From positions 1-34,415 of the IMG/VR virus record IMGVR_UViG_3300028553_000097: a stretch of DNA of 34,415 bases. One strand, given 5' to 3'. The stretch is from a virus. Under the pieces are notes generated by a model that searched no databases, was not told where the DNA came from, and worked only from the letters and a program-made list of their open reading frames with translations. Below are positions 10,341 to 33,164 of the stretch, one piece after another (positions within the stretch are counted from its first letter, which is position 1; each line of letters opens with the position of its first letter). Position numbers and translations under genes: made by a program.

Positions 10341-11399
10341 TCACGTTTCGTCTCTGTTCCGCTCAAGCTTAACGACCGCGGATCCAGCCATGCGCCGTTG
10401 GCGGGCTTTCTTGGTGTAGCGCTCCACCATTTGCAGCGTTTTGTGGCCAAGTACCGCGGCAATCTCGTGCGGGCTGCACCCGGCTTCTGCTAAGGCCTTC
10501 CCCGCGGTGTGCCGCAATCCGTGCAAGTGCAACTCTGTGAGGCCTATGTTGTCGAGATGCTTACGCATGTCTTTGGACAGCCGCTCGGGACGGATCGGAC
10601 GGCCCGCGGCGTCGGCAATCAGGAACAGTGCAGGCGGCAAGGCGTCCAGATAGGCCTTAAGCCGATAGTGCACTGGCACTAGCACCGGGTTCTGATTCTT
10701 GGATCCGGCGACCGCAATAGCGGATCCACTATAGTGTGACCGCATGAGGGAAACGATATCGCCGCGGCGCGGGCCTGTGTATCGAGCCACCATATATGCC
10801 GTCATGAGGTGCAGAGGTGGGCTAGATGCCTCAAACAGGGCCATCTGGTCCTCTGACCAATCCAAGTAGCTTTCGGCCTCACCGTCGCGTTTCATGAGCC
10901 TAGCGGGGTTCAACATCTCTAGGTCGTGCTCGCGGATCCCGTAATTGAACAGCGCAGAGCAGACTTGCCCAAATAGCTGGCGCGTCCGCGGAGTGTCCGC
11001 CAGCGTATCGCGAATGACGTTGATGTGGCGGCGGCGAACATCTACCGCGGGGAACGTCCCTATGACCGATAGCCGGTCTAAAGCCTTGGCGTAGCTAACC
11101 TGCGTTGCCGCGGTGAGTTTTTGATACCTTGGCGCTGACTTGTAGGCCTCGATTAACCATCCCACAGTGCCGTCAGCATGTCGGATTGGCTTGGGATCGC
11201 TATGGATCCGGCGCATTGCCGCGGCGTAGGCCTCAAAAAACTCCGGCATATCCGGGTTTCCGGGTAGTTTGGCAATGCGCTCGCCTTTGACCCGCAGATA
11301 AAAGTAATCGCGCCCCTTAGCCCTGGTGCGCTCGACGTTTGGCGGCAGCTTGAGCTTCGGCGGCATGGATGGCAGCCATGATTGGGTCAACTGGTCCAT
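10341..11399 (-). CDS. int: Tyrosine recombinase integrase
   Basis: A 352-residue phage integrase that should catalyse attP x attB recombination in the cytoplasm. The N-terminal part (13-75) is basic and probably binds arm sites; a SAM-like core-binding domain covers about 75-165. The catalytic residues are visible: Arg211 in TGPRRGD, His293 and Arg296 in HLHGLRHT, His319 in LGHK, and Tyr328 in MVERYTKK. The start at 11399 has AGAGG upstream; Met12 (11366) is an alternative. Its 5' end overlaps the excisionase-like gene by 83 bases in another frame, tying both to the leftward transcript. attP lies just beyond its 3' end. Confidence 0.95.
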   Translation of the reverse strand: MDQLTQSWLPSMPPKLKLPPNVERTRAKGRDYFYLRVKGERIAKLPGNPDMPEFFEAYAAAMRRIHSDPKPIRHADGTVGWLIEAYKSAPRYQKLTAATQVSYAKALDRLSVIGTFPAVDVRRRHINVIRDTLADTPRTRQLFGQVCSALFNYGIREHDLEMLNPARLMKRDGEAESYLDWSEDQMALFEASSPPLHLMTAYMVARYTGPRRGDIVSLMRSHYSGSAIAVAGSKNQNPVLVPVHYRLKAYLDALPPALFLIADAAGRPIRPERLSKDMRKHLDNIGLTELHLHGLRHTAGKALAEAGCSPHEIAAVLGHKTLQMVERYTKKARQRRMAGSAVVKLERNRDET

Positions 11400-11583
11400 T
11401 CTGGATGCCTCTTATCGCGGCGTCAATTTCTGCCGGATCCCACAGTAAACGGCGACCTAGAGATTTCCCCGCTGGTAGCCGCTTTTCCTTGACGCGCTGG
11501 CTAAAGCTGCGCTCACACAGTCGGCACCTAGCCGCGGCTTCTGAGCGGGTCAGCCACTGGCCGCGCACCTCCCTCACGGTCAT
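11317..11583 (-). CDS. Excisionase-like / winged-helix DNA-binding protein
   Basis: An 88-residue protein. Residues 9-50 (WLTRSEAAARCRLCERSFSQ, then LPAGKSLGRRLLW and DPAEIDAAI) match the MerR/Xis-type winged helix in which a small DNA-binding protein is followed by a basic tail. Directly upstream of and overlapping integrase, it is the likely recombination directionality factor. ATG 11583 overlaps the stop of the PAPS-reductase-like gene by four bases; an ATG 12 bases upstream is also in frame. Confidence 0.72.
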   Translation of the reverse strand: MTVREVRGQWLTRSEAAARCRLCERSFSQRVKEKRLPAGKSLGRRLLWDPAEIDAAIRGIQNGPVDPIMAAIHAAEAQAAAKRRAHQG

Positions 11584-12107
11584 GAGCTTATCCATTGCCA
11601 GTCTCCCTGGAACCCCATGGCGTACATTGGAGGCAGTGCAATGCCTGCGTGTTCAATCATCGCTAAGCACGCTTCTTTGGTCAGCCCGCGATCAATCAGC
11701 GGCGTACGGATTGCCATTTCGAAATTATTCGACCGCAACCGCTTAGACCGTTCCACGTCAGGACGGTCTGCGGTGTATCCGAACACATTGATGTCAGCAG
11801 CTTCTTGCCATTCAAGACGGGGCCTAACTTTTAGCTCCATCGTGCATGGTGCGCCTTCGATGCCTGCCAAATAACGGCGCTTCTCGAACACGTCCCAAGT
11901 GCTGGCGAACCGATCTGACCGAATGCGCTCAATTGGACGCTTGAACCACGCTTGGCAGTCGCGCAGGAACCGCGCGTTGTCGGGGTGCTCTGCGCCTGTT
12001 TCGCAATACGCAACGACGGCGCTTGGGTTGTCCGCAAGCGTAAGTTTCGTTGCGACCGCAGACGCAGCCCCGGCGCTGAACCAGCAAACTGTGCGACGAT
12101 CAGCCAT
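11580..12107 (-). CDS. PAPS reductase / PP-loop family protein, C-terminally truncated
   Basis: A 175-residue protein of the phage phosphoadenosine-phosphosulfate-reductase-like family. The PP-loop is present near residue 10 as WFSAGAASAVATKL, followed by VVAYCETGAEHPDNARFL and APCTMELKVRPRLEW (about 85-99); FGYTADRPD matches the conserved substrate-binding region. Homologues continue past the PPMYAMGF position with a metal-binding motif of the NCIGCVK type; here the frame ends nine residues later. The end coincides with the overlap into the excisionase/integrase module, suggesting loss of the C-terminus by recombination. The substrate in phages is unknown; these genes are often linked to DNA or nucleotide modification. 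Confidence 0.72.
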   Translation of the reverse strand: MADRRTVCWFSAGAASAVATKLTLADNPSAVVAYCETGAEHPDNARFLRDCQAWFKRPIERIRSDRFASTWDVFEKRRYLAGIEGAPCTMELKVRPRLEWQEAADINVFGYTADRPDVERSKRLRSNNFEMAIRTPLIDRGLTKEACLAMIEHAGIALPPMYAMGFQGDWQWISS

Positions 12108-17951: not shown

Positions 17952-18247
<296 letters not shown>

Positions 18248-18260
<13 letters not shown>

Positions 18261-18834: not shown

Positions 18835-19131
18835 TTAGTTGGTTTTGCGTAGTTGTCGCACAGCATGTATGGCGGCATGTATTTCACGACGTAAGGCGGA
18901 TTGGTCGCCTCGATAGATGTAATCGAGGGACAAACGATGGGCATCACAGAGAGCGTGAGCAAACTTCAAGTCCGGCATGTTTTTGCCGGTCTCATACTGG
19001 TTATACGTAGACGACGCTATGCCCGCCCGCGCCGCAAATTCTCGCTGATCAAGCCCAACGGCAGCTCGCACGAGCGCGAGGCGTCTACCGACGCCAGCTT
19101 TAGTCCGGTCGAATTCATCACTGTTTTCCAT
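18835..19131 (-). CDS. CI-like repressor (HTH XRE family)
   Basis: A 98-residue XRE-family regulator. The helix-turn-helix is RLALVRAAVGLDQREFAARAGIASSTYNQYETG in outline (about residues 17-50), followed by PDLKFAHALCDAHRLSLDYIY and a short C-terminal helix. There is no LexA-like peptidase domain, so induction by RecA-stimulated self-cleavage is not expected; an antirepressor or another route would be needed. I chose Met at 19131 because starting at 19203 would leave only 14 bases to the divergent gene and run across its promoter. Divergent orientation to a Cro-like gene marks this as the immunity switch. Confidence 0.83.
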   Translation of the reverse strand: MENSDEFDRTKAGVGRRLALVRAAVGLDQREFAARAGIASSTYNQYETGKNMPDLKFAHALCDAHRLSLDYIYRGDQSALRREIHAAIHAVRQLRKTN

Positions 19132-19182
19132 GGGGATGAAGATAATCCACAGCCGGACGGAGAAGAAATAGACCAGGCCAAC

Positions 19183-19222
19183 TTGACTTCTTTCATGCAC
19201 CATAAATATAATCGTGCATGAA
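19183..19222 (+). promoter_or_regulatory. Rightward promoter and palindromic operator
   Basis: TTGACT at 19183-19188 and TATAAT at 19207-19212 (spacing 18) form a strong rightward promoter. A perfect 9-bp inverted repeat, TTCATGCAC at 19192-19200 and GTGCATGAA at 19214-19222, brackets the -10 box. The right arm contains the ATG of the Cro-like gene at 19218. The predicted start site is at or next to that ATG, so the transcript would be leaderless or nearly so. Confidence 0.78.
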
Positions 19223-19460
19223 CACCATTACCACAATCCCTGAACTTGTGAAGGCATTCGGCGGCACGTGCCGGTTTGCTGAATTTTTAGAGATCGTGCC
19301 CGGCGCGGTTAGCAACATGCTGAGGGATGAATGTATTCCTCGCGGTTACCACCTTCAGGTTTACCTTGAGGCCAAGAAGCGCGGAATTACGCTGGATCTT
19401 CATGCCTTGGGGATGGCGGGCCGCCCTAAGCAGCGGCCTTTAGCGGGGGCCGCTGCATGA
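19218..19460 (+). CDS. Cro-like HTH regulator
   Basis: An 80-residue DNA-binding protein. Residues 6-50 (IPELVKAFGGTCRFAEFLEIV with PGAVSNMLRDECIPRGYHLQVYLEAKKRG) match the YdaS/Cro-like helix-turn-helix fold, and the tail is basic and Ala-rich (GRPKQRPLAG). It is divergent from the CI-like gene and first in the rightward operon, so it probably represses the repressor promoter and tunes early transcription. No ribosome site precedes ATG 19218, which fits a leaderless mRNA. Confidence 0.82.
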   Translation: MNTITTIPELVKAFGGTCRFAEFLEIVPGAVSNMLRDECIPRGYHLQVYLEAKKRGITLDLHALGMAGRPKQRPLAGAAA

Positions 19461-19591
19461 TCCACCTACTCGACTGGTCCAGCGTCATCCTCATTTGCGT
19501 GACTATTCTTGCCGTCAAGTGGCTCGCTGATGCTCTTTTCGACGGCGATGACACTGCAACTGAGATCGTCACTAAGCCTGGCGACGACTAA
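19457..19591 (+). CDS. Small membrane protein (44 aa)
   Basis: A 44-codon gene whose ATG overlaps the Cro-like stop (ATGA). The protein has one hydrophobic helix (SSVILICVTILAVKWLADAL, about residues 8-27) and an acidic tail (DGDDTATEIVTKPGDD). It is probably an inner-membrane peptide. Function unknown. Confidence 0.58.
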   Translation: MIHLLDWSSVILICVTILAVKWLADALFDGDDTATEIVTKPGDD

Positions 19592-19702: not shown

Positions 19703-19867
19703 ATGCTGCCTAAACTCTTGTGGCCACCATCAGATCGGATGCAACCAGATGCCGACGCCAGCACGGACCGAAAATGGGACGGAACTCAGTTTGAGCCCGT
19801 CACCGACGAAGAACTCGATGATCTCCTTACCCGTTGCGAACGGGGGCACTTCGGCCATGCTCACTAA
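19703..19867 (+). CDS. Small acidic protein (54 aa)
   Basis: A 54-residue protein (MLPKLLWPPSDRMQPDADAS, then GTQFEPVTDEELDDLLTRCERGHFGHAH). CAGGGA lies eight bases before ATG 19703; the frame is open to 19670. It overlaps the gcrA-like start by eleven bases. Function unknown. Confidence 0.55.
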   Translation: MLPKLLWPPSDRMQPDADASTDRKWDGTQFEPVTDEELDDLLTRCERGHFGHAH

Positions 19868-20381
19868 TTCGCATTGCTGGAATGATGAACGGGTTGAACT
19901 CCTCAAGAAGCTGTGGGCTGATGGCAAGTCGTGCGCAATCATTGCGCGTCAATTGGGGGGCGTCACCCGCAGCGCTGTCATCGGCAAAATCACTCGGCTT
20001 GGGTTACAGCAGCGCAGCACAACGCAACGTCAGAAGTTTTCGCGCCGTCGCGCCAACATCGAAAAAGCAACGATCATCCAGCGCCCTAAGGCTGGATTTG
20101 CCAGCATCCAGTACATCAGCAAATCGGCGACCAAAACGATTTGCGTTGATCCGCTTCCTTTACCTGTTGCGACCGACGCTGGTCGTGTTCGCTTTTCCGA
20201 CCTTCAAGCCGGTGCCTGCAAATGGATATGCAACGATCCTCGTGACGGCGCGATGGCGTGCGGTGAGGCCCAAGTTCCTGGTCTGCCCTATTGCCCCAGC
20301 CATTGCGCCCGCGCCTATCAGGCACCCGAAATCAAGCCGCGCGCAGCCAAACGCAAGGAGCTGGTCTATGTCCAGGCATAA
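19857..20381 (+). CDS. gcrA: GcrA-family cell cycle regulator homologue
   Basis: A 174-residue GcrA homologue. The N-terminal domain is clear: CWNDERVELLKKLWADGKSCAII, ARQLGGVTRSAVIGKITRLGL (about residues 7-50), the DNA-binding part. The C-terminal zinc-finger-like part has CKWICNDPRD and CGEAQVPGLPYCPSHCARAYQ (about 130-155). GcrA acts with sigma70 at promoters carrying CcrM-methylated GANTC sites and controls division and DNA-metabolism genes in Alphaproteobacteria. A phage copy could redirect host cell-cycle transcription or activate phage promoters in a methylation-dependent manner. The frame is open upstream to 19749; ATG 19857 gives the family N-terminus. Confidence 0.9.
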   Translation: MLTNSHCWNDERVELLKKLWADGKSCAIIARQLGGVTRSAVIGKITRLGLQQRSTTQRQKFSRRRANIEKATIIQRPKAGFASIQYISKSATKTICVDPLPLPVATDAGRVRFSDLQAGACKWICNDPRDGAMACGEAQVPGLPYCPSHCARAYQAPEIKPRAAKRKELVYVQA

Positions 20382-21032: not shown

Positions 21033-21848
21033 ATGATCGACCAAACCGTGATTGATACGATTTTTGCTAAGGGTGTTGCAGCCGCTGGATTGCAGCCATT
21101 TGAGCAAGCTGACGGGCGCAAGACCTTCCTTGTTCCAGGGGGCTATCGAACCGAAACTGTGGAGCCTCTTGAACGCAATCTTTCGCGCATCGGGCAAGTC
21201 GTCATCGTCCACGACGTTGCGAGCCTCACGGGGTACGTCAACAAGTTCAAGGATGGCGGCAGCAGGTTATTTGCAGAGCCCTCTTTTTTGGCAGGTGGCG
21301 GCGTTTCGCATGTCACCGCAGCTATCGACTACCACGACACCGGTAAGCCTTCTCCGGTCAAGCATGTGGCTGTCTACAACCCGCGCTTCTCTGACCAATG
21401 GGAGCTGTGGCACGCGGCCTGCGCAAAGCCGATGGAACAAGCCGAATTTGCTGAGTTTATCGAAGAGAACCGCGCCGATATTTCCGAACCAGCAGCAGCA
21501 CAATTGCTGGACGTGGTGCGGACCTTCAAGGCCAATCGCAAAGTCTCGTTCGATAGCGTCACCTATCAGCCCAACGGTGACGTGAAGCTTGGCTACGAGG
21601 ACCGTACCGAACAAACCGGATCAAGCGGAAGTCTTCCTGAAAAGCTTACGCTCGGGATTCCCGTTTACTTCCGCGACCAGCTTTACGCGGTTCCGGTTTG
21701 GGTCCGTTACAAAGTCGGCAGCGGCGCTGTGAAGTTCCAATTGAAGATGGATCGTTCTGACCTGATCGAAGCGGCGGCGTTTGAAACAGTCGTGGCGAAG
21801 ATCGCAGAAGATACGGCGTTGCCCGTTCATCTTGGCCGTTACCGCTAA
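21033..21848 (+). CDS. DUF2303 family (YfdQ-like) protein
   Basis: A 271-residue protein of the DUF2303 family (E. coli prophage YfdQ is a member). Typical segments are QVVIVHDVASLTGYVNKF around residue 55, AAIDYHDTGKPSPVKHVAVY near 95, WELWHAACAKPMEQAEFAEFIEEN (about 120-145), and a C-terminal beta-rich part with IPVYFRDQLYAVPVWVRYKV. Members occur in early/replication regions of temperate phages; the molecular role is unknown. Terminator-like hairpins lie both upstream (20602-20630) and downstream (21852-21888). Confidence 0.82.
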   Translation: MIDQTVIDTIFAKGVAAAGLQPFEQADGRKTFLVPGGYRTETVEPLERNLSRIGQVVIVHDVASLTGYVNKFKDGGSRLFAEPSFLAGGGVSHVTAAIDYHDTGKPSPVKHVAVYNPRFSDQWELWHAACAKPMEQAEFAEFIEENRADISEPAAAQLLDVVRTFKANRKVSFDSVTYQPNGDVKLGYEDRTEQTGSSGSLPEKLTLGIPVYFRDQLYAVPVWVRYKVGSGAVKFQLKMDRSDLIEAAAFETVVAKIAEDTALPVHLGRYR

Positions 21849-21934: not shown

Positions 21935-22135
21935 ATGCAAAATATACCGTCAAAACACGACCAAATCAAGACGTTTGCCCCAACCGCAAGCTTGTCAATG
22001 CGGATTTCAGCAATCGCACTTGGGATAAGTGCGGTCGACATGCACGGCCTGACCGTTAAGGAAACGCAGGTCAAACTCCGCCGCGCTGCAAACACCCTCA
22101 TGGACATCGCCTTGTCGTTTGACGAGGTGAAGTGA
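21935..22135 (+). CDS. Hypothetical protein (66 aa)
   Basis: A 66-residue protein (MQNIPSKHDQIKTFAPTA, SMRISAIALGISAVDMHG, KETQVKLRRAANTLMDIAL). It is helical, with no recognised family. CGGAG lies eight bases before ATG 21935. The stop overlaps the helicase start (TGATG). Confidence 0.58.
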   Translation: MQNIPSKHDQIKTFAPTASLSMRISAIALGISAVDMHGLTVKETQVKLRRAANTLMDIALSFDEVK

Positions 22136-23547
22136 TGGACGGATCGTCACCAATTACGCGGCCTGTCCCGAACAGCCTCGAAGCCGAGCGGGCTTTGCTT
22201 GGCTCAATCATGGTTTGGAACGGCTCACTCGACAAAGTAGGCGAGTTGCATCCAGCCCATTTTTACCACCCATTGCACGGGCGCATCTTTGAAGCCGCTC
22301 GGCAAGCGTACCAAGGCGGTCGCGTAGTCACCCCTGTCACGCTCATGTCATCGTTTGAAAATGAGGAGCCGATCAGCGATGCGATGACGGTCCCGCAATA
22401 TCTCGGGTTGCTGGCGTCGCACGCCGTGAGCTTGGCCTATGTTGCCGACTACGCCGAAGAACTCCGCACCCTCTACACGCGGCGCGAGTTGATCGTATTG
22501 GGGCAAGAGCTGGCCGCAACGGCACAAGACCCGAAAGACACCAAGGTTCCTGAGATTATCTCCCAAGTCGAAACGGCGCTCTACGGCTTGGCCGAAAGCG
22601 ACACCTACGGGCGCGGATCGAAGCACATCGCAGACATTGTGTCTGATGTGCTGATTGAAGTGAACGACGCATACATGAACAAAGGCCCCAAGGGCATTAA
22701 AACGGGCTTTCTAGATCTTGATCGCAAGCTAGGCCCCCTTGCCCCCGGCAACCTGATTATCCTAGCAGGCCGACCGTCTATGGGCAAGACGGCGCTATGC
22801 CTCAACATGGCGTGGCAGATGGCGCGATCAGGCATCAAGGTTCAGTTCGATAGCCTTGAAATGTCATCGACGGAGCTCGGCTTTCGCTTGGTTGCCGAAC
22901 GGTCTGGAATTTCAACAAGCGCCATGCGTGAAGGCAAGGACCTCACAGACGACGACTTCCGCAAACTTAAGGCCGCTCAAAACGAAATCCGCCAAGCCCC
23001 GCTGTGGGTCGATGACGCTGGTGGTCTTAACATCGGCAGAATGACAGCTAGGGCACGGCGCATTAAGCGCCAGCGCGGGATAGAAGTGCTGTTTATCGAC
23101 TACCTGCAATTGATGGCCGGTAACTCAAGCAACCGCGTATCTGACGTGACTGAAATCACTACAGGCCTCAAGGCGCTGGCGAAAGATCTGGAAATCCCAA
23201 TTATCGCGCTCTCCCAGCTATCCCGCAAATGCGAGGAGCGCACAGATAAGCGCCCACAGTTGGCAGACCTGAGAGACAGCGGATCAATCGAGCAAGACGC
23301 AGATATCGCGCTCTTTGTGTACCGCGATGAATACTATCTGGATCGCTTAGAACCTAGCGATGCTGGGTCTACAGAGTGGAATGCATGGCACACCAAGAAG
23401 GGTGAAGCGGCTGGCAAGGCTGAAATCATCATTGCCAAGCAACGTCATGGTGCATGTGGTCCTGTCCAAATGGCATTTGACGCTAATCTGACCCGTTTCT
23501 CAGACCTTACAAAAGCACCACACCCGTCAGTTAGGAGGCACCAATGA
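22135..23547 (+). CDS. dnaB: DnaB-type replicative helicase
   Basis: A 470-residue hexameric replicative helicase. The N-terminal domain (NSLEAERALLGSIMVWNGSL, about residues 12-31) is typical of DnaB. The RecA-like C-terminal domain has Walker A GRPSMGKTAL (about 212-221), QFDSLEMSSTELGFRLVAE, Walker B VLFIDYLQLM (about 319-328) and the arginine-finger region KQRHGACGPVQMAFD near 440. It is somewhat longer than the bare minimum and lacks an intein. ATG 22135 follows an in-frame GTG at 22132. It precedes the initiator/loader gene, the usual phage replication pair. Confidence 0.95.
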   Translation: MDGSSPITRPVPNSLEAERALLGSIMVWNGSLDKVGELHPAHFYHPLHGRIFEAARQAYQGGRVVTPVTLMSSFENEEPISDAMTVPQYLGLLASHAVSLAYVADYAEELRTLYTRRELIVLGQELAATAQDPKDTKVPEIISQVETALYGLAESDTYGRGSKHIADIVSDVLIEVNDAYMNKGPKGIKTGFLDLDRKLGPLAPGNLIILAGRPSMGKTALCLNMAWQMARSGIKVQFDSLEMSSTELGFRLVAERSGISTSAMREGKDLTDDDFRKLKAAQNEIRQAPLWVDDAGGLNIGRMTARARRIKRQRGIEVLFIDYLQLMAGNSSNRVSDVTEITTGLKALAKDLEIPIIALSQLSRKCEERTDKRPQLADLRDSGSIEQDADIALFVYRDEYYLDRLEPSDAGSTEWNAWHTKKGEAAGKAEIIIAKQRHGACGPVQMAFDANLTRFSDLTKAPHPSVRRHQ

Positions 23548-24979: not shown

Positions 24980-25149
24980 TATCCATTGGAACGCAGGCGC
25001 AATTCATGCGCAGCCTGATCGCCAAATTTGAAAAAACGATGATCCGCCCGCCTAAGGGCTTTCGTGGCGACGGGGCCCATTATGAGCGCGAAATCATGAA
25101 AGCCATAGCCAAGAACCTAGAAGCGCAGATGACGGGAGGGGGAGAGTGA
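24967..25149 (+). CDS. Hypothetical protein (60 aa)
   Basis: A 60-residue basic helical protein (MASLISIGTQAQFMRSLIAK, then MIRPPKGFRGDGAHYEREIM and AKNLEAQM). It overlaps the preceding gene by 13 bases and its stop overlaps the methyltransferase start by three bases. Function unknown. Confidence 0.55.
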   Translation: MASLISIGTQAQFMRSLIAKFEKTMIRPPKGFRGDGAHYEREIMKAIAKNLEAQMTGGGE

Positions 25150-25778
25150 GCTACGTACTTTCGCTTTGCGACCGCACCGGCACCATGGTCCGCCCGTGGA
25201 TTGAGGCTGGATACTATGCCGTAACGGTCGATTTGCAGCCGCAGGAAAACCCACACAGGAACAGGACGCACTTCGTCGCTGACGTGACGAAGCTGGATTT
25301 GAAAGAATGGAACCTAGTTAATCCGGTAGTGGTGTTTGGCTTCCCGCCATGCACTCACCTGGCATCGTCAGGCGCTCGCTGGTTCAAGGGCAAAGGGCTT
25401 GGAAAAGTTATCGAGGCGTTGCAGATCGTGGAAGCCGTGCGAGACGCCTGCGAAAAGTCAAAAGCGCCTTACATGATTGAAAACCCTGTTGGCACGCTGG
25501 CGACCTACTGGCGCAATCCTGACCACACGTTTCATCCAGTTCATTATTCCGGCTATGCGCCAGACCCAACAGCCGACGGGTACACCAAGAAAACATGCCT
25601 TTGGACCGGCAACGGCTTTGTAATGCCTGACCGCAAGCCTGGCGTCCCAACGCTAGGTTCGATGATGCACAAGCTACCGCCATCTGATGATCGTGCTGAC
25701 CTAAGGAGCGCGACGCCCCTTGGCTTTGCTTATGCCGTATTCGCGGCCAATTCAAAACGAGTAGAGATCGCAGCGTGA
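25146..25778 (+). CDS. Cytosine DNA methyltransferase-like protein
   Basis: A 210-residue protein related to C5-cytosine methyltransferases. The SAM region opens with LSLCDRTGTMVRPWIEAGYYAVTVDLQ in outline; motif IV is FGFPPCTHLASSG with the putative catalytic Cys near residue 69; motif VI appears as ENPVG near 114. No clear target-recognition domain is present, and the protein is far shorter than restriction-type enzymes (over 300 residues). Such short phage forms may protect phage DNA or act on modified bases. GTG 25146 overlaps the previous stop (GTGA) after GGGAGGGGG. Confidence 0.75.
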   Translation: MSYVLSLCDRTGTMVRPWIEAGYYAVTVDLQPQENPHRNRTHFVADVTKLDLKEWNLVNPVVVFGFPPCTHLASSGARWFKGKGLGKVIEALQIVEAVRDACEKSKAPYMIENPVGTLATYWRNPDHTFHPVHYSGYAPDPTADGYTKKTCLWTGNGFVMPDRKPGVPTLGSMMHKLPPSDDRADLRSATPLGFAYAVFAANSKRVEIAA

Positions 25779-27027: not shown

Positions 27028-27060
27028 AGCGTGCCCACCCCACCAAGAAAGGACACGCCG

Positions 27061-27642
27061 ATGAATACCGCCCCCTGGTTCGTGCTTGTCGCGACACCCC
27101 AGCTTGAATTCAAAGCTGAAAGCGCCATCCGTGAGCGTGGCTATTCGGCTGTTGTCCCTTTCGAGGAAAAGGAATTGCGCGCGCAATTCAGCCGCAAGCT
27201 GAATGCCGTCCCTGAGCCAAAATTCCGCAAAATGCCGCTTTTTAGGGGTTACACCATCGTCCAGGCCGAACATCAGGACGACATTGGGCAACTGCTCTAC
27301 CAGATGAGCCGCGCACCTCGACGCCTCGTCTCCAACGTGCTACGCTATGATGGCAAATACGGCCCTCCCAGCCCGCTCCCGCCCCAGTGCATGGAATACC
27401 TCAACGAAATCTCAGGACGCCGCGTGCGGTCAAATTTGGAGATTGCGCCGCTCAAGATCGGTGACGTTGCTCGGATTGCCTCGGAACACGCATTCGCAGG
27501 CCAGCAATCGACGATGATTTCCAAGACCAAGACCGGCGCAAAGATGCTGATCGAGGTGCTCGCCTCAATGCGCGTTGTGGAAATTCAGGATCGGTATCTG
27601 CAACGGGTTGAAATTGCCCCGCAAATCAGGCAGAGTGCTTGA
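27061..27642 (+). CDS. NusG/RfaH-like transcription factor
   Basis: A 193-residue NusG-superfamily protein. The NGN domain covers about residues 5-95 (WFVLVATPQLEFKAESAIRE, RGYSAVVPFEEKELR, FRKMPLFRGYTIVQAE), and a KOW domain covers about 131-184 (KIGDVARIASEHAFAGQQ, KMLIEVLASMRVVEIQDRYL). NusG paralogues bind RNA polymerase and act in elongation, pausing or antitermination. Placed at the end of the replication block and before the packaging and structural genes, it may be the late-gene antiterminator. ATG 27061 has AAAGGAC upstream; the frame is open to 27031. Confidence 0.88.
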   Translation: MNTAPWFVLVATPQLEFKAESAIRERGYSAVVPFEEKELRAQFSRKLNAVPEPKFRKMPLFRGYTIVQAEHQDDIGQLLYQMSRAPRRLVSNVLRYDGKYGPPSPLPPQCMEYLNEISGRRVRSNLEIAPLKIGDVARIASEHAFAGQQSTMISKTKTGAKMLIEVLASMRVVEIQDRYLQRVEIAPQIRQSA

Positions 27643-31759: not shown

Positions 31760-33164
31760 TGTCCCCGAAAAGTTAGAGCCGCTTTTGTACCCGGCTCGCT
31801 ATAAGGGCGCACATGGTGGACGAGGCGGGGCTAAGTCTCACTTCTTTGGTGAGCAGGCCGTTCTCAAGACCTTCGAAGGCAAGCGCGTTGTTTGCATCCG
31901 CGAAGTCCAGAACTCCATTAAGGATTCGGTTAAGCAGCTCGTTGAAAGTAAGATCGCCAAGCTAGGGCTTCAATCCAAGTTTGAGGTTCTTCGCGATGAA
32001 GTCAGAGGCCCACGCGGCGGTCTGATGGTCTTTCGAGGGATGCAGGATTATAACGCGGACAACATCAAGTCGCTTGAAGGGTTCGACGTTGCGTGGGTTG
32101 AGGAAGCGCAAAGCATATCGGCCCGCAGTTGGCGGTTACTTCGCCCAACGATCAGAAAGCCTGAATCCGAGATTTGGTGCAGTTGGAACCCTCGTTGGGA
32201 TACGGACCCGGTAGACGAGTTCTTCCGAGGCGCGAACAAGCCCAAGGATGCGGTTTGCGTCGAAATCAATTGGCGCGATAACCCTTGGTTCCCTGGCGTT
32301 CTCAAAGACGAAATGGATCGCGACTTTTCCGCTGATCCCGAGATGGCCGAACACGTATGGAACGGCGGCTATGAGATCGTTTCTGAGGGCGCTTACTACG
32401 CTCGATTGTTAGCCCAAGCGGAGAAGGAAGGCCGAATAGGTCACTTCCCGCACGATCCGCGCCGCAAGGTCTTTACGAGTTGGGACTTAGGAATATCGGA
32501 CTACACGACGGTTTGGTTCTTCCAGCACGACGGCACCTACGTAAACGTCATCGACTACTACGAAACCAACGGCGACGGCTTTGATGATGTGGTTGGGTAT
32601 GCACTGCCTGAGCAGTTTATCCCGCCGCCGCTAGAGCATAAGTTTGACGGCTGGTCACAGCCAATGGCTATGGAGCGCCTAGGGCGAACAGAACCGTTCC
32701 GCTATGAAAAGCACTTCCTTCCACACGACGTTCGCGTTCGTGAGCAAGGCGCGGGCGGGCGACATAGGCACCAAATCTTGGATGCGCTCGGCTTGAAGCC
32801 CTTGGCTAAGGGCGTGCCAGACCGCAACGACAACCGCATTCCGGCAGTGCGTTCGATGCTGCCAATCACGAGGTTCCACAATACGCCGCGCGTTCAGGCA
32901 GGTTTAAAGCGCCTTCGCCGGTTCCGCCGCAAGTTCAACGATGCGCTCGGAACCTACACGACGCCGATCCACGATGAAGCCTCGCACGCGTCCGACAGCT
33001 TTGGTGAGTTCGCGGTCAACTGCCCTATCAAGATCGAAGTGCCCAAGGTCGTGAATAAACCCGCCCGAGACTACGGCTTCGAGATCGGCCACGGCGGCGC
33101 ACTCATTCCGTCTATGGACATCGACCAAATCATCAAAATGCAACGCCGCTTAAAGGAACTCTGA
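31740..33164 (+). CDS. terL: Large terminase subunit, PBSX-type
   Basis: A 474-residue packaging motor. The ATPase domain has Walker A GGRGGAKS at residues 26-33, an adenine-binding region near VCIREVQNSIKDSV, and Walker B FDVAWVEEAQ with Glu121/Glu122. The RNase H-like nuclease domain has Asp249 in FTSWDLG, an acidic cluster around VIDYYETNGDG, and a late Asp in SHASDSFGEF. Layout matches the PBSX/Terminase_3 group, often used for headful packaging. The start is TTG 31740, overlapping the small subunit by 20 bases; TTG 31785 lies too close to Walker A to be likely. Confidence 0.93.
   Translation: MSVLRVDVPEKLEPLLYPARYKGAHGGRGGAKSHFFGEQAVLKTFEGKRVVCIREVQNSIKDSVKQLVESKIAKLGLQSKFEVLRDEVRGPRGGLMVFRGMQDYNADNIKSLEGFDVAWVEEAQSISARSWRLLRPTIRKPESEIWCSWNPRWDTDPVDEFFRGANKPKDAVCVEINWRDNPWFPGVLKDEMDRDFSADPEMAEHVWNGGYEIVSEGAYYARLLAQAEKEGRIGHFPHDPRRKVFTSWDLGISDYTTVWFFQHDGTYVNVIDYYETNGDGFDDVVGYALPEQFIPPPLEHKFDGWSQPMAMERLGRTEPFRYEKHFLPHDVRVREQGAGGRHRHQILDALGLKPLAKGVPDRNDNRIPAVRSMLPITRFHNTPRVQAGLKRLRRFRRKFNDALGTYTTPIHDEASHASDSFGEFAVNCPIKIEVPKVVNKPARDYGFEIGHGGALIPSMDIDQIIKMQRRLKEL

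Follow-up and report, generated by a model that had tools for sequence, protein, structure and literature searches.

The window, by which we mean the whole stretch of DNA analysed here, is a 34,415-base IMG/VR virus record that holds genes for a Mu-like major head protein, a terminase and an integrase, leftward-running RecT-like and exonuclease genes, a repressor/Cro-like pair, DUF2303, DnaB and a NusG-like antiterminator. Judged by this gene content, it is a temperate-type phage. The record is probably incomplete because, read as a circle, it offers no whole portal-length ORF between the terminase (ending at 33164) and the head gene. Genes were called with a simple purpose-made caller, and the calls are rough. 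The following features are central to the analysis:

10341 to 11399, minus strand: integrase (Phage_integrase, 1.6e-16)
18835 to 19203, minus strand: HTH repressor-type gene (HTH_31, 6.4e-12; HTH_3, 1.3e-11; PHROG repressors)
19183 to 19212, plus strand: promoter-like site of the rightward operon, TTGACT-18-TATAAT, 11 of 12 matches
19194 to 19220, no strand: operator-like 7-bp inverted repeat across the -10, CATGCAC-N13-GTGCATG, read from the sequence
19218 to 19460, plus strand: Cro-like gene heading the rightward run, assigned by position and a P22_Cro match below the Pfam cut-off (E 0.0079)
19703 to 19867, plus strand: ORF of 54 aa, sharing its last 11 bp with the start of gcrA
19857 to 20381, plus strand: gcrA-like gene, 174 aa
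19875 to 20006, plus strand: N-terminal DNA-binding domain, residues 7-50
20187 to 20330, plus strand: C-terminal sigma-interacting-type domain, residues ~111-158
21033 to 21848, plus strand: DUF2303 gene downstream of gcrA (PF10065, 1.6e-49)
22132 to 23547, plus strand: DnaB-type helicase (DnaB_C, 4.1e-91)
27031 to 27642, plus strand: NusG-like antiterminator (NusG, 2.7e-06; phrog_6386)

The promoter-like site sits between the leftward HTH gene and the Cro-like gene, and the run behind it comprises the ORFs 19218-19460, 19457-19591, 19703-19867 and 19857-20381, making gcrA the fourth. Since promoter-like matches are no commoner in the region than in shuffles (3 versus a mean of 4.7), the assignment of the operon promoter rests on match quality and place. 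The ATG of gcrA at 19857 overlaps the stop of the small upstream ORF (ATGCTCACTAA), an arrangement that suggests coupled translation. A longer start at 19749 (210 aa) was rejected because the ATG/stop overlap recurs in a divergent relative, L022 (IMG/VR UViG_3300028571_001570), where a homologous upstream ORF with the same C-terminal motif likewise overlaps gcrA by 11 bp. Elsewhere in the window, the minus strand carries a low-complexity ORF of G-N-G-Y-G-D repeats (17952-18260) and an ORF with a weak PAPS-reductase match (11580-12107, E 0.021); a coral-associated gcrA phage is reported to carry cysH too (PMC11309003).

The ORF at 19857-20381 encodes a GcrA with both domains. The match of its product to the Pfam GcrA family PF07750 scores 107.1 bits (E 1.4e-30; the family cut-off is 26.9), the alignment joining residues 8-158 to profile positions 3-149 of 155 and thus covering both domains. 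Alphaproteobacteria use GcrA to control transcription over the course of the cell cycle, and it belongs to a small set of bacterial transcription factors able to read DNA methylation. When compared with PDB sequences by phmmer, the protein matched C. crescentus GcrA (7ye1, E 1e-23), the DNA-binding domain (5yiu, 2.8e-14, over residues 7-50) and the sigma-interacting domain (5yix, 2.1e-05), the two domains being those described for sigma70 and methyl-DNA binding in the parts of the literature consulted (PMC7403470; PMC3667746).

An AlphaFold2 model, built from an alignment of nine phage GcrAs, is confident in the DNA-binding domain (~7-50, pLDDT ~88-91) and the C-terminal domain (~111-155, with pLDDT ~85-90 over residues 111-150), with a poorly modelled linker between them; at a mean pLDDT of 69 and a pTM of 0.32, the relative orientation of the domains carries no meaning. 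The top five Foldseek matches in the PDB (7ye1, 5yiv, 5yiu, 5yix and 7ye2) are all C. crescentus GcrA, the first three (7ye1, 5yiv, 5yiu) being the only ones with E <0.001. The N-terminal fold superimposes on 5yiv with a TM of 0.95 by target length, an rmsd of 0.5 and 70% identity over 44 columns, and the C-terminal fold matches 5yix_B with a probability of 1.00 and a TM of 0.79 by target length, at an E of only 0.11.

Conservation was gauged against 39 chromosomal GcrA rows (the usable ones of 40 places, hand-picked in a spread from the PF07750 listing of the 385-genome sample described below, second or weak copies included), in which 39 positions carry the same residue in at least 75% of rows. 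The window protein keeps 32 of these 39. The seven exceptions are N9 (34 of the 39 rows have T) and C26 (A in 30); within the recognition helix, S39 (N in 37) and T46 (H in 35); and within the sigma-binding domain, I124 (P in 38), N126 (G in 38) and M133 (F in all 39). DNA or sigma binding may therefore have changed. In the C-terminal domain, the residues C121, C135, C146 and H149 are invariant across ten phage GcrAs, and each is found in at least 38 of the 39 chromosomal rows; one guess is that they form a zinc site. An earlier conservation test on 80 chromosomal GcrAs was discarded, as its loci had been found with patterns including NAVIGKVH, which fixed some of the residues under test. A preliminary description had named a phage-encoded GcrA homologue early in the rightward operon with both termini intact; the family, PDB sequence and fold matches bear out the identification, the position behind the promoter-like site bears out the placement, and the claim of intactness holds for the folds but is too strong for the sequence.

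Three loci (L002, L007 and L020) come from a single record that is almost the same as the window, at 99.7% over 11 kb. The gcrA of L002 differs from that of the window by two substitutions, both non-synonymous, and L002 has N39. The more distant L022 belongs to the same lineage, as its terminase is 95% identical to that of the window, and the right part aligns at 86-89% DNA identity in long blocks and at 74-100% in shorter stretches. Its GcrA (184 aa) occupies the same place and is 41% identical, but the recognition helix is host-like, with the N and H kept, an S24-type repressor is present, and a helicase and a Toprim primase stand where the window has its DnaB and HNH genes.

In a 70-row GcrA tree, the GcrAs of the window, L002 and L022 (row L057) group with a support of 100/93, and the wider placement of this group is unsure, falling weakly beside a Hyphomicrobium MAG GcrA (89/55 and 90/73). 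Five changes are needed to account for the ten phage rows, which make up one side of a branch in 0 of 200 bootstrap trees; this suggests several acquisitions by phages, although the well-supported branches force no more than one and shuffled labels do about as well (180/500). Several phage rows are long, and the window lineage is itself a long branch. This branch, together with S39 and T46 in place of a nearly invariant N and H and I124, N126 and M133 in place of P, G and F, would fit an altered or antagonistic GcrA that binds sigma70 but reads another motif, or that competes with the host GcrA and shuts methylation-dependent host promoters. Given that the sister phage L022 keeps the recognition-helix N and H, that L002 keeps N39 and that the window protein retains most other conserved residues, we consider such a change of function fairly unlikely.

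Among 47 related viral records, chosen by terminase or DUF2303 similarity, PF07750 was found above its cut-off in ten and at E 0.01 in 12; the other 35 gave no match at that level, many being fragments in which absence means little. A tblastn search of annotated phages with the window GcrA (P0001) returned 29 records, all below 60% identity, from phages of Caulobacter (18), Brevundimonas (7), Synechococcus (2) and Phaeobacter (1) and one unclassified phage. As to domain make-up, there are variants among the phage GcrAs: the match of the ORF at L062 1432-1893 is confined to the C-terminal half of PF07750, the sigma-binding one, and those at L063 1327-1920 and L006 1288-1995 (Brevundimonas phage) apparently have two tandem N-terminal DNA-binding units. 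Scanning genome contigs with P0001 revealed no relative, and the window terminase found matches in 13 of 385 alphaproteobacterial genomes, the best at 53% over residues 19-220.

On the chromosomal side, PF07750 occurs at E 1e-5 in 241 of the 385 sampled alphaproteobacterial genomes, and two or more matches occur in 8 of 25 genomes, all chosen for holding GcrA. Scored against the viral proteins gathered in this analysis, stretches with at least three virus-like ORFs surround 2 of 14 extra copies (L228 and L240) and none of 80 main copies; PHROGs in L228 include replication genes, and those in L240 a repressor, primases and a DUF2303-type protein. A control search with PF07750 unexpectedly matched the archaeon Sulfolobus acidocaldarius in two runs, and not under a stricter E-value limit. 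With alphaproteobacterial genomes so ready a source, sometimes including extra divergent copies, the phage gene could be a captured host gene that is neutrally carried and of little function to the phage. We hold this to be very unlikely, for gcrA recurs in several phages and has stayed at one place in the operon while the protein diverged by 59% and a neighbouring module was exchanged.

No CcrM-type gene (N6_N4_Mtase, PF01555) was found in the probably incomplete window record, and Pfam scans covering most of its called genes hit no methyltransferase family. The product of 25146-25778 on the plus strand (210 aa) matches phrog_757, 'DNA methyltransferase', and contains PPC and ENP stretches that we take to be reminiscent of cytosine-C5 enzymes; having neither a Pfam family match nor a PDB methyltransferase match, it was rejected as a CcrM partner. 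In the prophage-like stretch L240, which belongs to the genome of L137 (titled Chelatococcus sambhunathii), an N6_N4_Mtase gene ends three bases upstream of a GcrA-like ORF whose match is weak (43.7 bits, beginning at profile position 20), making this stretch (L240 6663-8510) a possible, putative phage-borne methyltransferase-GcrA pair.

GANTC is the site of CcrM. The window contains 22 such sites, compared with 141 (sd 12.5) in dinucleotide shuffles, and a maximal-order Markov estimate gives GANTC an observed/expected ratio of 0.25. No other of the 256 XYNZW patterns is as low, the next being TANCA at 0.63 and CCNGG at 0.68; the depletion is thus 4- to 6-fold. In 16 window genes, seven sites were seen where 500 shuffles preserving the proteins and the codon pool gave 31.7 (sd 4.2, minimum 17), meaning that the loss was made with synonymous codons. 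Several 6-bp palindromes are strongly depleted in the window too (for example CGGCCG 0 versus 15.7 expected, CGATCG 1 versus 21.1), as in restriction avoidance. In CcrM-bearing alphaproteobacterial genomes, GANTC is under-represented at least 2-fold on average, according to the part of the source consulted (PMC3973325), and the depletion in the window suggests long residence in CcrM-bearing hosts. Strong GANTC avoidance may be a simple sequence sign of such a host for unassigned phages.

The depletion is not evidence for GcrA function, as it is seen in L018, L026 and L027 (0.09-0.13 of order-1 expectation), where no gcrA was detected, and is missing from L015, which has a GcrA match yet holds GANTC at 1.05 of order-1 expectation. 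That gcrA carriage causes the depletion was likewise rejected: the median observed/expected ratio was 0.27 in 11 GcrA-bearing and 0.57 in 32 other loci (Mann-Whitney p 0.15), in a comparison confounded by the entry as 'without' of L019 and L021 (near-identical fragments of the window phage that miss the gcrA region) and of L016 and L051 (weak matches), and by the entry of L020, nearly the window's own phage, on the GcrA side. Contigs <8 kb were dropped from this test, and loci rather than whole records were used.

The distribution of the remaining sites bears on the suggestion, also made in the preliminary description, that a phage GcrA couples phage promoters to methylation state. On this account, the protein serves the phage's own promoters, with the few retained GANTC sites marking those that fire only if methylated by host CcrM. 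Some sites do lie shortly upstream of called genes (5879, which is 62 bp before 5941, as well as 17512, 20490 and 26365). However, there are only 22 in 34 kb and none at the operon promoter, and the intergenic excess is not significant, with seven of the 22 intergenic or, in one case, partly so (p 0.09, on rough gene calls). Of the two window sites within segments alignable with L022, just one (31923) is shared, and it lies inside the terminase gene. Broad use of methylated phage promoters is unlikely given the depletion, and the listing of GANTC sites speaks against the suggested coupling; overall, we judge service to the phage's own promoters to be distinctly improbable.

Because of the GANTC avoidance, the likely targets shift from phage to host promoters. 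The reading that we favour, whose chances we see as evenly balanced, is that an early-expressed phage GcrA directs the host's RNA polymerase to host promoters of the GcrA type, the phage's own GANTC-poor genome remaining largely outside this regulation. Expression would start early from the rightward promoter under Cro/repressor control; going by what is known of the family, the C-terminal domain would then bind region 2 of host sigma70 and the N-terminal domain methylated GANTC near promoters. Early in infection or induction, polymerase would thereby be brought to promoters of replication and S-phase genes, irrespective of how much GcrA the host itself has, presumably to the benefit of the phage. 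In favour of this reading are the family and fold, the 32 conserved residues kept, the repressor/Cro placement, the retention of that place in L022 despite 41% identity and another replication module, the PF07750 matches in ten of the 47 records, the depletion that points to a CcrM-bearing host, and the finding, in the consulted part of the source, that GcrA orthologues of other alphaproteobacteria can substitute for C. crescentus GcrA (PMC3667746). Against it count the seven changed residues, a depletion not tied to gcrA and the 35 related records in which GcrA was not found. The phage GcrA may shift the host cell cycle, as the preliminary description proposed.

The changed residues in the recognition helix and sigma domain, combined with the purging of GANTC from the phage genome, also allow an early GcrA switch with altered reading, which would move sigma70-polymerase off methylated host promoters, or differently onto them, as phage promoters escape, so that the host cell-cycle stage would influence lysis or lysogeny; we regard this version as unlikely. 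Kept beside cro while relatives swap neighbours, gcrA offers a compact natural experiment on whether lysis and lysogeny are steered by the host cell cycle.

GcrA proteins of phages and prophages have been in print since 2012, when phiCbK gp222 was proposed as a lever on the host cell cycle (PMC3556154), an idea repeated in 2022 (PMC9437464). GcrA also appears in a gene table of S. meliloti phiLM21-like prophages (PMC12429752) and is reported from a coral-associated phage that has been tied to a Rhizobiales MAG (PMC11309003), these papers having been consulted in part; among the titles and abstract openings that literature searches found, none reported a functional test of any phage GcrA. Compared with C. 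crescentus GcrA (7ye1, 7ye2, 5yiu, 5yiv and 5yix), the window protein is alike in the sequence and predicted fold of both domains but is phage-borne and carries seven changes at conserved positions. Like phiCbK gp222 and related homologues of Caulobacter phages, it is a phage-encoded PF07750 protein, but identity is only ~30%; the phiCbK genome exceeds 200 kb, as against a small phage of temperate type here, in which gcrA neighbours cro. The phiLM21-like prophages likewise place GcrA in temperate alphaproteobacterial phages, a likeness by listing rather than by sequence. The window thus provides a further, well-placed example, to which the present analysis adds a gcrA position beside cro that is kept through module exchange, an overlapping upstream ORF, a list of changed residues and the avoidance of GANTC.
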